Source: Actinacidiphila yanglinensis (GTDB lineage: Bacteria > Actinomycetota > Actinomycetes > Streptomycetales > Streptomycetaceae). Taken from it: a DNA stretch of 64,000 nt. Made by a program: the position numbers and the translations under genes. Positions 44,937 to 51,409 of this stretch are shown piece after piece; the first letter of the stretch is position 1, and each line of letters opens with the position of its first letter. A model generated the notes under the pieces. It ran no database searches. It worked only from the letters and a program-made list of their open reading frames with translations, and was not told the origin of the DNA. The stretch covers positions 1-64,000 of the forward strand of contig NZ_FNVU01000009.1 in the NCBI RefSeq assembly GCF_900107965.1, read 5' to 3'.

Positions 44937-45186
44937 TCGTCAGCCTCCCGACCGCGGGCCGTGCCGGCCCTGCCGCTGCGTCCACCTGATCACGTACCGG
45001 ACAGACGTTACCGCCCACCGGGGTGCCGGAACCCGGCGCCCTGCCCCTCCAGTGGACTAGACCATTTCGCGGTTGCCGCCATGGCCGCCGCGCACCATCA
45101 TCGGCGGATCTGAACGGTGCTTCAGGCGCCTTGCGGGCTGCGGCGATTCGGCGGCCCGGGCGGCTCTGGCAGATCAGGAGGACGGA

Positions 45187-46479
45187 ATGGACCCACTCTC
45201 CCGCAGGACCTTCACGGTGGCGGCGGCCGGCACGCTCGCCTCGGCCGCGGCGGCCGGCACCGCGCAGGCGGCCGCTCCGGGGGCGGCGCCCCGGGCCGGG
45301 TCCGGCGTGGCCGTGCCGGGCGGCCGGACCGGCGCGCACCGGCCGGCCACCGCGCGCCGCGAGCTGCGCGGCATGTGGATCGCCACCGTCACCAACACCG
45401 ACTGGCCGTCCGCCCCCGGGCTGTCCCCGGCGGAGCAGCGCGCCGAGCTGATCGACCTGCTCGACATCGCCGTCGAGCGCCGCCTGAACGCGGTGATGTT
45501 CCAGGTCCGCCCGACCGCCGACGCGTTCTGGCCGTCGCCGTACGAGCCGTGGTCGCAATATCTCACGGGCACCCAGGGCCGCGACCCGGGCTGGGATCCG
45601 CTGGGCACCGCCGTGCACGAGGCACACCGCCGGGGACTCGAACTGCACGCCTGGTTCAACCCGTACCGGGTCGCGATGACCGAGGACCCGAGCACGCTGG
45701 TCCCGACCCACCCGGCCCGGCTGCACCCGGACTGGGTGCTGCCCTACGGCGGCAAGCTGTACTACGACCCCGGGCTGCCCGAGGTCCGCCGCTTCGTCGA
45801 GGACGCGATGCTCGACGCCGTACGCCGCTACCCGATCGACGCGGTGCACTGGGACGACTACTTCTATCCGTACCCGGTGGCCGGTCAGACCTTCGCGGAC
45901 GATGCGAGCTTCGCCCGCTACGGCGCCGGCTTCCCCGACCGCGACTCCTGGCGGCGGCACAACACCGACCTGCTGGTCAGCGAGATGGCCGCCAGGATCA
46001 AGCTGATCCGGCCCCGTACCCAGTACGGCATCAGCCCGTTCGGGGTGTGGCGCAACGCGGCCAACGACCCGCTCGGCTCGGCCACCCAGGCGGGCGTGCA
46101 GACCTACGACGACCTGCACGCCGACACCCGCGGCTGGATCAAGCGCGGCTGGCTGGACTACATCGCCCCGCAGATCTACTGGAACATCGGCTTCGCCGCC
46201 GCCGACTACGGGATCCTGGTGCCCTGGTGGTCGGACGTGGTGGCCGGCACCCGGGCGAAGCTCTACGTGGGGGAGGCGCTCTACAAGGTCGGCGTCGCGG
46301 GCCAGCCCGCCCAGTGGCAGGACCCGGCCGAGCTGTCCCGGCACCTCACCTTCGACGCCGATCACCCTGAGGTGCGCGGCAACATCTACTTCTCCGCCAC
46401 GCAGGTCACCGCGGACCCGCTGGGCGCGATGACCGAGGTGGTCGCCGACCACTACCCGACCCGGGTGCGCACGCCGTGA
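45187..46479 (+). CDS. exported GHL10-type putative glycoside hydrolase
   Basis: 430 residues from ATG 45187 with AGGAGG just upstream. Tat-type signal DPLSRRTFTVAAAG, then the DUF187/GHL10 barrel: LRGMWIATVTNTDWPS, LNAVMFQVRPTADAFWPS, LHAWFNPYRV, VHWDDYFYPYP, GISPFGVWRN and YIAPQIYWNIG. Family members are predicted glycosidases acting on cell-wall or exopolysaccharide glycans; substrate unknown. Single gene with its own promoter region (250 bp, divergent from hbd). Confidence 0.88.
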   Translation: MDPLSRRTFTVAAAGTLASAAAAGTAQAAAPGAAPRAGSGVAVPGGRTGAHRPATARRELRGMWIATVTNTDWPSAPGLSPAEQRAELIDLLDIAVERRLNAVMFQVRPTADAFWPSPYEPWSQYLTGTQGRDPGWDPLGTAVHEAHRRGLELHAWFNPYRVAMTEDPSTLVPTHPARLHPDWVLPYGGKLYYDPGLPEVRRFVEDAMLDAVRRYPIDAVHWDDYFYPYPVAGQTFADDASFARYGAGFPDRDSWRRHNTDLLVSEMAARIKLIRPRTQYGISPFGVWRNAANDPLGSATQAGVQTYDDLHADTRGWIKRGWLDYIAPQIYWNIGFAAADYGILVPWWSDVVAGTRAKLYVGEALYKVGVAGQPAQWQDPAELSRHLTFDADHPEVRGNIYFSATQVTADPLGAMTEVVADHYPTRVRTP

Positions 46480-46617
46480 GCTGACGGTCCCTCACCTCCC
46501 GTGCGCGGCCGCGTGCCGCGCACGGGATGTCCCGGCCCGGTCCTGGCCCGGTCACGGCCCGGTAGCGGCCCGATAATCCGCTCGAACGACCACCGGCCGC
46601 GCTGTTACGTTCTGCGG

Positions 46618-47352
46618 GTGGCGAAACTCAACCAGATCATCGCGGTCGAGAAGGGCGTCAAGTCCAAGGCGCAGCAGGAACTGACCGCGGCCCATCACGA
46701 CCTCCAGAAGCCCGCACTGCTCTCCGGCATCGCCCGGACCTACCAGCCCAAGGACGAGGAGGGCGAGCAACTGCCGCCCGAGTCGACCCGGGTGCAGTTG
46801 CAGGCGGAGCAGGTGCTGAAGTCCACCGCGGCCGTGCTGACGCGGCTGTTCGACGTGACCGCCACCAAGGACTGGGCCAACTGCGAGGCGCGCGCCCACG
46901 TCACCGTCGACGGCCGGGAACTCGTCCGCGACGTGCCGGTGTCCTACCTGCTCTTCCTGGAGAAGCAACTCACCGACCTGCACACCTTCATCCGCAAGCT
47001 GCCGGTGCTGGACGCCGCCGAGGCGTGGAACCTGGACGCCTCCACCGATGCGTGGAAGACCGAGCCGGTGCGGACCAACCGCACCCGCAAGGTGCCCCGC
47101 AACCACGTGAAGGCCGAGGCGACCGAGAAGCACCCCGCGCAGGTGGAGGTGTACTACGAGGACGTGGCGGTCGGTTACTGGACCACCGTGAAGTTCTCCG
47201 GCGCGCTGCCCGCCCGGCGCGTCAACGAACTGCTGGAGCGGGTCGAGAAGCTCCAGCAGGCCGTGAAGTTCGCCCGCGAGGAGGCGAACGGCGCCGAGGT
47301 GACCGACCAGCGGGTGGGTGACGCGGTGTTCGGCTACCTCTTCGGGTCCTAA
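46618..47352 (+). CDS. conserved hypothetical protein, probably leaderless
   Basis: 244 residues from GTG 46618. Highly charged and mostly helical, starting MAKLNQIIAVEKGVKSKAQQ; later YWTTVKFSGALPARR and coiled-coil-like LLERVEKLQQAVKFAREEAN. It looks like a widely conserved actinobacterial protein of unknown function (possibly DUF7873). There is no ribosome-binding site; TACGTT at 46606-46611 is 6 nt before the GTG, where a -10 would place the transcript start on the start codon. Confidence 0.75.
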   Translation: MAKLNQIIAVEKGVKSKAQQELTAAHHDLQKPALLSGIARTYQPKDEEGEQLPPESTRVQLQAEQVLKSTAAVLTRLFDVTATKDWANCEARAHVTVDGRELVRDVPVSYLLFLEKQLTDLHTFIRKLPVLDAAEAWNLDASTDAWKTEPVRTNRTRKVPRNHVKAEATEKHPAQVEVYYEDVAVGYWTTVKFSGALPARRVNELLERVEKLQQAVKFAREEANGAEVTDQRVGDAVFGYLFGS

Positions 47353-47365
47353 CGGACCACAGACT

Positions 47366-47386
47366 CCCTCCGCCCAGTGCGGAGGG
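47366..47386 (+). terminator. hairpin terminator
   Basis: CCCTCCGC, 5-nt loop, GCGGAGGG: perfect 8-bp stem 13 bp after the preceding stop. It separates that gene from the tRNA-like genes. Confidence 0.65.
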
Positions 47387-47432
47387 TGCGCGAGGAGCGC
47401 AAAGCTGAAGCTGAAGCTTGTCGTGACCGACG

Positions 47433-47505
47433 CGGTTCCCGTGGGGGTTCGAATCCCTCTCCCGGCACCACCGGCCGGGGTAGCCCAACCGGCAGAGGCA
47501 GACCG
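47433..47505 (+). tRNA. circularly permuted tRNA-like gene A
   Basis: The 3' half (47433-47470) comes first: anticodon 3' strand CGGTT, 5-nt variable loop CCCGT, T-arm GGGGG-TTCGAAT-CCCTC, acceptor TCCCGGC, discriminator A, encoded CCA. After three bases (CCG) the 5' half follows (47474-47505): acceptor GCCGGGG, TA at positions 8-9, D-arm GCC/GGC with a GG-containing loop, and anticodon 5' strand GACCG. Acceptor strands pair 7/7 (one G-U) and anticodon strands 5/5 (one G-U), and the halves plus a 7-nt loop give a normal 77-nt tRNA. Beyond the stem, CGGT (47506-47509) can pair with ACCG (47426-47429) across a 3-nt bulge. The anticodon cannot be read. Confidence 0.62.
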
Positions 47506-47576
47506 CGGTAAACCTCAGACTCTCGCTCCAGACTCAGCATTCGCCGCCGATCGCCGGATCGACCGGCCACGGGCTG

Positions 47577-47682
47577 CGTCGTCAGGTGCCGGTTCGACTC
47601 CGGTCCGCCGCTCTCCTCCCGCACCGCGCGGTCCACGCGCGGTGCGGACCGTGCGGCGGTAGCTCAATGGCAGAGCGCGACG
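47577..47682 (+). tRNA. circularly permuted tRNA-like gene B
   Basis: The 3' half (47577-47612) precedes the 5' half (47653-47682). The 3' half has anticodon strand CGTCG, variable loop of about 6 nt, T-arm GCCGG-TTCGACT-CCGGT, acceptor CCGCCGC and discriminator T, without an encoded CCA. The 5' half has acceptor GCGGCGG, TA at 8-9, D-arm GCTC-AATGGCA-GAGC and anticodon strand CGACG. Acceptor (7/7) and anticodon (5/5) strands are perfect complements. The 40-nt spacer contains a 12-bp hairpin (47619-47647). The U73-like discriminator and D-arm recall tRNA-Gly, but the anticodon is split and unassigned. Confidence 0.62.
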
Positions 47683-47738
47683 ACATCAAGGTGACCTGTG
47701 GCCTCAAGCGTGCCGGCGTGCGCACGTGGCGGCATCGA

Positions 47739-47780
47739 GGGGCCCGGAGACTGGACACGTCTCCGGGTCCCGCTCCTTTT
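47739..47780 (+). terminator. intrinsic terminator after tRNA-like genes
   Basis: A 13-bp stem (47739-47751 with 47759-47771, one G-U) and 7-nt loop, followed by GCTCCTTTT. One of few hairpins here with a T-run, fitting the end of a stable RNA transcript. Confidence 0.75.
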
Positions 47781-47801
47781 CCCGGTTACCCTGGGCGCAC
47801 G

Positions 47802-48968
47802 ATGCACCGATTCAGCTCGCCGTGGGGCGACCTCGACCTGACCCGATTCCCGGCCGAGCCGCGCGAGCAGCTGCGGGCCTGGGACGCCGCCGACGCCTAC
47901 GCGCTCCAGCACCTGGCCGAGACCGGCGCCGTCACCGCGACGGGGCCCGGCGGCCCCGCTACCACCGTCGTGGTCGGCGACCGCTGGGGCGCCCTGACCA
48001 CCGCGCTCGCCGCCCACGGCGGTACCCGCCCCACGCTCGTCACCGACTCCTACCTCGCGCGGCAGGCCACCGAGGCGAACCTGCGCCGCAACGCCCCGGC
48101 CGCGCAGATCACCCTGCTCACCACCCGCGACGCACCGCCGCCCCGGGTCGACCTGCTGATCGTCCGGGTGCCCAAGAGCCTGGCCCTGCTGGAGGACCAG
48201 CTGCACCGGCTCGCGCCCGCCGTGCACTCCGGTACGACCGTGCTCGGCACCGGTATGGTCAGCGAGATCCACACCTCCACGCTCAGGCTCTTCGAGCGGA
48301 TCATCGGCCCCACGACCACGTCGCTGGCCGTACGCAAGGCCCGGCTGGTCTTCTGCACGCCCGCGCTCGGCCTCGCGCCCGGCCCGAACCCGTGGCCCCT
48401 GCGGTACGCGCTGCCCGAGGACATCGGCGTGATGTCGGGGCGCACCGTGGTCAACCACGCCGGGGTGTTCTGCGCGGACCGGCTCGACCTCGGCACCCGG
48501 CTCCTGCTCGGCCATCTGCCGCGGCGCACCGGTCCTGACCGGGTGGTCGACCTCGGCTGCGGCAACGGCGTCGTCGGTACCGCCGCGGCGCTGACCAACC
48601 CCGCGGCGGAGGTGCTGTTCACCGACGAGTCGTACCAGGCGGTGGCCTCGGCGGAGGAGACGTTCGCGGTGAACGTCCCTCCGGGGGTGAAGGGGGAGTT
48701 CGCGGTCGGGGACGTGCTGTCGGATGTGCCGCCCGAGAGTGTGGATCTCGTGCTCAACAACCCGCCGTTCCACTCCCACCGTGCGACCACGGAGGCTGCG
48801 GCCCGCCGCATGTTCGGTGCGGCGAGGGCCGCGTTGCGCCCGGGGGGCGAGCTCTGGGTGGTCGGCAATCGTCATCTCGGCTACCACGTGCGGCTGCGGC
48901 GCCTCTTCAGCGCGTGCGACGTCGTCGCCTCCACCCCGAAGTTCATCCTCCTCCGCGCCACCAAGTAG
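47802..48968 (+). CDS. class I methyltransferase, RlmG/RsmC-like
   Basis: 388 residues from ATG 47802. Two Rossmann-like halves as in RsmC/RlmG: a degenerate N-terminal half ([15 protein letters not shown]) and an active C-terminal half with the SAM motif [12 protein letters not shown] and the guanine-N2 catalytic signature LNNPPFHSH. Probably modifies a guanine in rRNA. No ribosome site; TACCCT (47787-47792) lies 9 nt before the ATG, suggesting leaderless expression. Longer in-frame starts would run through the tRNA-like region and are rejected. Confidence 0.87.
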
Positions 48969-49026
48969 CCGCTCCGGTGGGGTTGTTGCTGTCGTGCCCG
49001 GTCCACCGGCCGGTGGCCGGTTGCTC

Positions 49027-49067
49027 GCGCAGTTCTCCCCCAGCCTGGCGGCTGGGAGGTGCCCCCA
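49027..49067. repeat. streptomycete dispersed repeat, copy 1
   Basis: Carries GCGCAGTTC and a 24-bp core, beginning CCTGGCGGCTGGGAGG and ending TGCCCCCA, that matches 55430-55453 exactly. This core is a well-known intergenic repeat type in Streptomyces. Only the right arm is present here. Confidence 0.7.
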
Positions 49068-49189
49068 CGCGCCCCTGAGGGTGGACGTTCGTCCGTGTCC
49101 GTGTGGGTGTCCCGGGCCGCCGACGGGTGGACGTTTCCGTGTCGGCGGCCCGGACCGCTGGGAGGTGGACGTCAGTCCGGGGAGACGGG

Positions 49190-51409
<2,220 letters not shown>

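Follow-up and report, generated by a model that had tools for sequence, protein, structure and literature searches.

Two circularly permuted transfer RNA (tRNA)-like units, here called modules A and B, are found downstream of a gene for a protein of the DUF7873 family in Actinacidiphila yanglinensis. They were analyzed within a 64,000-nt stretch (contig NZ_FNVU01000009.1 of assembly GCF_900107965.1, positions 1 to 64,000), which we refer to as the window and whose numbering is used throughout; all features described in it are on the forward strand. In both units, the order of elements is permuted: T-arm, 3′ acceptor strand, loop, 5′ acceptor strand, D-arm. The initial annotation had taken them for two tandem genes. 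On comparative evidence, they are instead parts of one RNA of ≈405 nt with its own conserved scaffold, which begins 13 nt past the DUF7873 stop codon. DUF7873 and this RNA look like a widespread, undescribed RNA–protein system, rather than two odd tRNA genes. The fold, the covariation, the linkage to DUF7873 and the occurrence without Ro60 are established by comparison with related loci; we infer co-transcription, binding by DUF7873 and capture of tRNA-recognizing proteins.

Module A (47431–47507) was delineated with a descriptor of the permuted order, RNAalifold, covariation and a covariance model, R1. It is closed by an anticodon-type stem (47431–47436/47502–47507) that contains CGGTT and GACCG. 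The T-arm (47443–47459) leads into the acceptor strand TCCCGGC (47460–47466), which pairs with GCCGGGG (47474–47480) across a loop (47467–47473) that begins with ACCA, i.e., discriminator plus CCA. The 5′ acceptor strand is followed by TA (47481–47482) and by the D-arm (47483–47499), whose stem is 47483–47485/47497–47499. RNAalifold drew an alternative D-stem (47483–47485/47491–47493) on 44 close sequences; a wider alignment of A modules, denoted A2, backs the tRNA-like stem, whose three pairs contain 10 double-changed cells. Module B (47579–47683) was delineated by the descriptor, covariation, a second covariance model (R2) and a sub-threshold Rfam match to YrlA. Its anticodon-type stem is formed by TCGTC and GACGA (47579–47583/47679–47683), its T-arm occupies 47588–47604, and the acceptor pairs CCGCCGC (47605–47611) with GCGGCGG (47653–47659), followed by the D-arm (47662–47676; stem 47662–47665/47673–47676). 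The 41-nt acceptor loop (47612–47652) forms a 12-bp GC-rich hairpin of its own. (Among 14 aligned sequences, this extra hairpin is present only in the window and in the related locus L003.) The permuted order recognized in the initial annotation was confirmed by reading the sequence and by the descriptor, and the acceptor and anticodon-type pairings and tRNA-like loops were borne out by sequence and covariation.

The descriptor gave exactly two matches on both strands of the window, modules A and B. Its D-stem rule had been relaxed after the first version missed A, and every control used the relaxed version. Model R1, derived from A modules, scored 81.4 bits on module A, whose sequence is part of that model, and 38.4 bits on module B; R2, which does not contain the module B sequence, scored 65.7 bits on B. 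In single-sequence folding, B was better than its shuffles (z of −3.88 and −4.21), while A was not clearly better than its own (0.87, 0.22 and −1.61 for three cuts). The support for module A is comparative. In the covariation sets for A (A2, 49 rows, one of them from locus L105, which also holds a junction of tandem tRNAs) and B (34 rows), 99.2% and 99.6% of cells, respectively, were paired, compared to 40–55% in slid controls, but these percentages are inflated, because the rows were chosen by a descriptor that requires those very stems. Compensatory change between the distant halves, the initial annotation's proposed check, was plentiful, with 144 double-changed cells in A and 147 in B, against shuffled means of 33 and 41. 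The observed covariation score was matched by none of 500 shuffles for either module; a measure of B pairs changed on both sides was reached in 13 of 500. The anticodon-type stem is an independent test, since the descriptor does not demand it: all five pairs could form in 129 of 195 distinct modules, versus 13.6% when halves were swapped. The same 195 modules contain 104 distinct acceptor strands. T-loops, U8 and the analogue of G18–G19 are conserved across modules (the descriptor itself requires these), and it is therefore likely that the modules form a tRNA elbow.

The initial annotation had suggested that the units might be tRNAs awaiting ligation, or two-piece RNAs. Consistent with permuted tRNA genes from which functional or two-piece tRNAs are made, the T, D and acceptor elements are complete, and at two-module loci, 34 of 82 A and 24 of 82 B modules have NCCA directly after the acceptor strand (58/164; chance, 1 in 64). 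However, decoding tRNAs are ruled out, because there is no anticodon loop: U occurs at the U33 position in 26 of 129 modules, which is the chance level, and the anticodon-type stem extends past 5 bp in 91 of 129. The 4-bp helix and bulge next to unit A, read in the initial annotation as half of a bulge-helix-bulge, is altered in L003, which is 96% identical, and absent from the 44-sequence consensus. We therefore regard permuted tRNA genes as largely refuted and extremely improbable. A likeness to split transfer-messenger RNA (tmRNA) did not hold up either. The signal for tmRNA-like Ala charging, G3–U70, occurs in only 1/49 A and 2/34 B rows (3/83), and Rfam gave no tmRNA match at the locus. 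The NCCA may have been left over from phage tRNAs in tandem, or may be selected, e.g., for RNase P.

The modules might also be the junction between two ordinary tRNA genes, or their remnants, in tandem. Junctions of tandem identical tRNAs elsewhere (Asn-Asn, Val-Val and Glu-Glu; L258, L259, L260 and L264) do match model R2, with scores of 33–61 bits, so that surveys must exclude them, and one of the 231 modules in our survey (see below) is such a junction. In the window, however, ARAGORN finds no tRNA in all 64 kb, which argues against a junction for A and B, and acceptors co-vary across the 104 distinct sequences, inside a conserved scaffold. This explanation is refuted for this locus and has practically no probability left, although a tandem-tRNA junction may be the evolutionary origin of the module, as opposed to its present state.

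The scaffold that joins the two modules was derived with RNAalifold from the window and 43 of 47 two-module genome loci, after removal of near-duplicates (44 sequences), together with helix counts and the terminator-like site. The predicted RNA extends from ≈47366 to ≈47781 and comprises two leader hairpins, an arm around each module and a terminal hairpin. Leader hairpin 1 (47366–47373/47379–47386) is 90% paired, with 42 double changes. Leader hairpin 2 (47388–47391/47397–47400) is 93% paired with no double change, and is weakly supported because slid versions pair almost as well (77–84%). In arm A (47404–47538), the outer stem (47404–47417/47525–47538) is 95% paired versus 24–30% when slid, with one double change, and the inner stem (47424–47426/47515–47517) 100% paired versus 33–53%, with none. 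This scaffold is nearly invariant, and is therefore backed by pairing more than by covariation. In arm B (47543–47733), by contrast with slid controls that gave only 0–23 double changes, three stems are 92–100% paired and have 7 (47543–47548/47728–47733), 21 (47552–47557/47713–47718) and 70 (47565–47573/47695–47703) double changes. The terminal hairpin (47739–47781) has the loop UGGACAC and a short T-run and is terminator-like, with 98% pairing and 75 double changes, well above its slid controls; one terminator-like site was found in 1.5 kb, compared to 0.7 expected from shuffles. (The conservation of its loop motif exceeds the needs of a plain terminator. After module B, 15 of 34 viral RNAs carry GGATATG/GGAYAYG, against a shuffled mean of 1.1, and this is the terminal-hairpin loop where it was read by eye.)

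The 5′ strand of arm A carries the hexamer repeats AAGCUG-AAGCUG-AAGCUU (47404–47421). Among genome RNAs, 44 of 47 have a hexamer repeat on the 5′ side of module A (shuffled mean 0.1), as do 17 of 34 viral RNAs (shuffled mean 0.0); it possibly represents a protein-binding register. ARRCUN-type hexamers also recur in AU-rich phage RNAs, in which their pairing partners are not obvious by eye. In the relatives L017, L020 and L021, module A is swapped for a plain hairpin, which suggests, as far as sequence comparison goes, that the arms are separable docking sites. At loci where a single module was detected, a crude rule indicates that this module lacks the A-type D-arm at 25 of 32 genome loci and 29 of 35 viral loci, although a second module may be missed.

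We determined how closely the RNA is linked to DUF7873 by searching with a DUF7873 alignment (A1). This yielded 166 loci in viruses and at least 568 in genomes, of which the best 80 of each were kept; exclusion of three viral loci with <500 nt downstream left 157 (77 viral and 80 genome). Modules were found on the same strand, within 1 kb downstream of DUF7873, at 149 of the 157 loci (70/77 viral and 79/80 genome), compared to 1/157 upstream, 2/157 antisense and 7/3140 in dinucleotide shuffles; the surveyed loci are related to one another, and the counts are not independent events. Two modules were present at 35 viral and 47 genome loci, or 34 and 47 without the tandem-tRNA junction L105, the omission of which left the locus counts unchanged at 149 (70 viral and 79 genome). 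Among the 231 modules, 211 were clear of ARAGORN tRNAs, one was the L105 junction, and 19, all at genome loci, had their T-arm inside a tRNA call; 147 of 157 loci had at least one module wholly clear of such calls. In L176, L178, L180, L183 and L185, ARAGORN placed an ordinary-order tRNA (Phe, Ser or “???”) ≈25–35 nt after DUF7873, overlapping the 5′ part of the RNA and module A. These calls are probably spurious, but an alternative fold is conceivable. In a search for conserved neighbors, the window's downstream methyltransferase was beside none of the 80 genome loci and its upstream GHL10 gene beside one, given approximate protein ends and flanks of ≤2.5 kb.

The RNA and DUF7873 also go together across genomes. 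In the genus of the window, the RNA (DNA match with expectation value E ≤7.7e-18) is found in 23 of 35 genomes, and these are also the 23 that have DUF7873; five further genomes give weak, partial DNA matches (E ≥4.7e-7) and have no DUF7873. Of 392 genomes sampled from a large actinobacterial genus, 184 have DUF7873, compared to 6 of 296 in a phylum-wide draw. A control genome, that of Deinobacterium chartae, had both a DUF7873 match and a match to TROVE, the Ro60-like family, and DUF7873 is therefore found outside the actinobacteria as well.

A tblastn search found DUF7873 in 73 phage records, duplicates included, from phages with hosts (by name) in Vibrio, Gordonia, Rhizobium, Klebsiella, Serratia, Arthrobacter, Pseudanabaena, Rhodococcus and Microcoleus. 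Eleven named phages were examined. Ten of them, representing seven host genera, carry modules no more than 1 kb past the end of DUF7873, and all of these modules are clear of ARAGORN tRNAs. There are two modules each in Phendrix, the Arthrobacter phage Racecar, NiceHouse, PA-SR01 and KpLz-2_45, and one each in Fryberger, two Rhizobium phages and two Vibrio phages. In several phages, the cassettes sit among tRNA genes. A further descriptor match in the Gordonia phage Phendrix (L032, position 7951) was rejected as the junction of two annotated tRNAs. The same phage has a tmRNA match of 89 bits (cut-off 47) at L032 1212–1740, inside a dense tRNA array, where no feature is annotated.

The DUF7873 gene of the window (46618–47352) encodes 244 aa, with a GTG start inferred from relatives; the mechanical open reading frame starts upstream, at 46501. 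(The locus is on one contig of a 9.59-Mb genome.) The protein is a full member of PF25283, with 399.1 bits against a cut-off of 27 (E 1.1e-119) and a match that spans positions 2–242 of the profile, out of 244. The Pfam entry states no function, and a literature search returned no publication mentioning DUF7873. NCBIfam and PADLOC had no match for the three DUF7873 members tried, and PHROG had none for the protein. An AlphaFold model (mean predicted local distance difference test score 92.2, predicted template modeling score 0.77) predicts long helices and extended β-strands. Foldseek found nothing in the PDB for this model at E ≤0.001, a BFVD fold search gave nothing above background, and the best PDB match by sequence had an E of only 0.17. 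The top VIA-align hit, TolC (Z 7.3, root-mean-square deviation 10.4 over 146 residues), is within the background range. That a family is unlisted is not evidence of a new fold.

The module type is that of bacterial Y RNA (T-arm, capped acceptor, D-arm), as compared with PDB entry 6CU1 as described in PMC11472068. One alternative is that the RNA is a Y RNA acting in trans for the Ro60/Rsr protein of the cell. In addition to the shared module, the Rfam YrlA model (RF02553, cut-off 69) gives 26.9 bits for module B, the only Rfam trace of the units in 45000–50500, and 37.1 and 32.9 bits for the Phendrix and Racecar RNAs; no match at the cut-off was found at 20 further DUF7873 loci. In keeping with such a role, the genome of the window has a TROVE/Ro60-like gene on another contig (548 codons in the longest open reading frame on its strand), with two tandem YrlA-like RNAs upstream of it (locus L001, positions 306342–309563 of that contig; RNAs at L001 2648–2715 and 2851–2955, reverse strand). 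These score 42.7 and 38.1 bits and fail the cut-off as well, which makes it a weak criterion. The Rfam model may thus miss actinobacterial members. A Ro-binding motif is present in the stretch that separates the modules in 13 of 47 genome RNAs (shuffled mean 1.9). However, it occurs there in none of 34 viral RNAs, and is absent from the RNA of the window; 5′ of module A, it is found in 3/47 genome and 3/34 viral RNAs. TROVE is missing from 10 of the 11 DUF7873 phages and, in the genus of the window, from 11 of 23 genomes with DUF7873, and it is present in 3 of 12 without. Upstream of viral TROVE genes, permuted modules were found at 20 of 31 loci. A lenient motif pattern separates the two kinds of module poorly (10/32 TROVE and 47/231 DUF7873 modules), but a strict CGAAGN0-1G 5′ of the module, a pattern chosen post hoc, is found in 10/31 TROVE versus 6/231 DUF7873 modules, and hexamer repeats in 0/32 versus 71/231. 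Service to Ro60 in trans is therefore very unlikely.

We propose that DUF7873 and its ≈400-nt double tRNA-mimic RNA constitute an undescribed class of ribonucleoprotein that is shared by actinobacteria and by phages infecting actinobacteria, proteobacteria and cyanobacteria. It would be the equivalent, independent of Ro60, of the Ro60–Y RNA particle, and its two permuted bodies would capture tRNA-handling enzymes. We consider this reasonably probable. A non-coding RNA of ≈405 nt would be co-transcribed with the DUF7873 mRNA and probably released from its 3′ end. It would fold into a two-armed scaffold with one permuted tRNA-like body per arm, each presenting a T-arm, a D-arm and a loop-capped acceptor stem and merging into the scaffold through its anticodon stem. 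DUF7873 may bind this scaffold, perhaps at the hexamer-repeat arm and the terminal hairpin, while the tRNA-like bodies would dock proteins that recognize the elbow or acceptor, e.g., TruB, Dus, PNPase, RNase P or EF-Tu. In this way, machinery that handles tRNAs would be tethered or sequestered by the particle, much as Ro60 and PNPase are by Y RNA, to the benefit of phages and hosts under conditions that damage tRNAs or expose them to attack. If Y RNA is taken as the guide, a role as tether or decoy appears likeliest, and we give the proposal as a whole, a tRNA-mimicking scaffold or tether RNA working with DUF7873, slightly better than an even chance.

Several observations weigh against this proposal. 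Binding of RNA by DUF7873 is a guess, because the computed isoelectric point is 6.4 and there is no clear fold match. No module was found at eight of the 157 loci (L113, L125, L133, L147, L151, L160, L166 and L191), nor downstream of DUF7873 in the remaining named phage, that of Microcoleus (L056). When seven of the eight loci (all but L125) were read by eye, several contained tRNA-like pieces that break the rules of the descriptor, and L133 contained none; in L166, which is also the single upstream control match, two modules precede the gene. The replacement of module A by a plain hairpin, described above, means that two modules are not essential. Furthermore, one of the 11 phages does have a TROVE gene, the Ro-binding motif in a subset of the genome RNAs argues against a clean split between the systems, and one viral contig, IMGVR_UViG_3300026078_000021 (L146, L269), holds both side by side. 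On this contig, further permuted modules and a TROVE gene adjoin DUF7873 and its RNA on the same strand.

Two other roles for the RNA were considered. As a decoy or counter-defense RNA, its bodies would occupy tRNA-attacking or tRNA-processing enzymes of the host or of competitors, and DUF7873 would stabilize or carry it. Phages of unrelated hosts carry the cassette, in several cases among tRNA genes, and the NCCA is retained at the acceptor end. However, a decoy for anticodon nucleases is unlikely because there is no anticodon loop, PADLOC was silent for the three proteins, and chromosomal DUF7873 is also common, as seen in the large genus above. We consider a dedicated decoy possible but unlikely. 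Alternatively, the RNA could be a cis-acting tRNA-like 3′ untranslated region, bound by DUF7873 or by a tRNA-binding enzyme, which controls the DUF7873 message. Its start close to the stop codon, the shared strand of RNA and gene at almost all loci, and the lack of a sigma-70-type promoter match in 46400–47900, which is a weak test in this bacterial group, are consistent with such an element. In phage PA-SR01 (L051), however, the first module is ≈600 nt past the gene, and an RNA of this length, with two modules and two arms, is larger and more elaborate than the autoregulatory mimics known to us. A cis-acting element is thus rather improbable. The orphan family DUF7873 thereby gains an RNA partner that accompanies it almost everywhere we looked, and the permuted tRNA body proves to be a reusable module that is not confined to the Ro60–Y RNA particle. 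With two small components and an explicit structural model, binding partners and function are directly testable.

In the permuted tRNA genes of algae and archaea, the 3′ half precedes the 5′ half. The modules linked to DUF7873 have the same order, but lack the anticodon loop and a conserved splice motif, and their strands instead enter the scaffold. In the precursor of two-piece (permuted) tmRNA, the acceptor strands are closed by a loop and CCA is often encoded; both features recur here, with the difference that our modules have a D-arm. In the literature on permuted tRNAs and tRNA-like RNAs of bacteria and phages, within a coverage that did not extend to the primary Y RNA papers, there was nothing like the DUF7873-linked RNA, nor any study of Y RNA and Ro60 in Streptomyces. 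The permuted module itself was already known; the RNA and its protein partner were not, as far as the literature searched goes. The initial annotation's statement that there was no described bacterial case does not stand: a bacterial Y RNA (6CU1) can be superposed on tRNA once a circular permutation is allowed for (PMC11472068), and the tRNA-like domain of YrlA resembles the D, T and acceptor arms (PMC8394870). YrlA is described there as 90–150 nt long, with a stem that binds Rsr and a tRNA-like domain that binds and thereby tethers PNPase, and as a substrate of DusA and TruB. The closest known relative of the DUF7873-linked modules is this tRNA-like domain of YrlA-type Y RNA (RF02553). Both are permuted tRNA-like domains, with a T-arm, capped acceptor and D-arm, set on a stem formed by the RNA's own flanks, and in both cases, the RNA gene adjoins the gene for a protein. 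Whereas the YrlA RNAs have one such domain each, the ≈405-nt DUF7873 RNA often has two, adds the hexamer-repeat arm and the terminal hairpin, lies 3′ of DUF7873, and occurs without Ro60.
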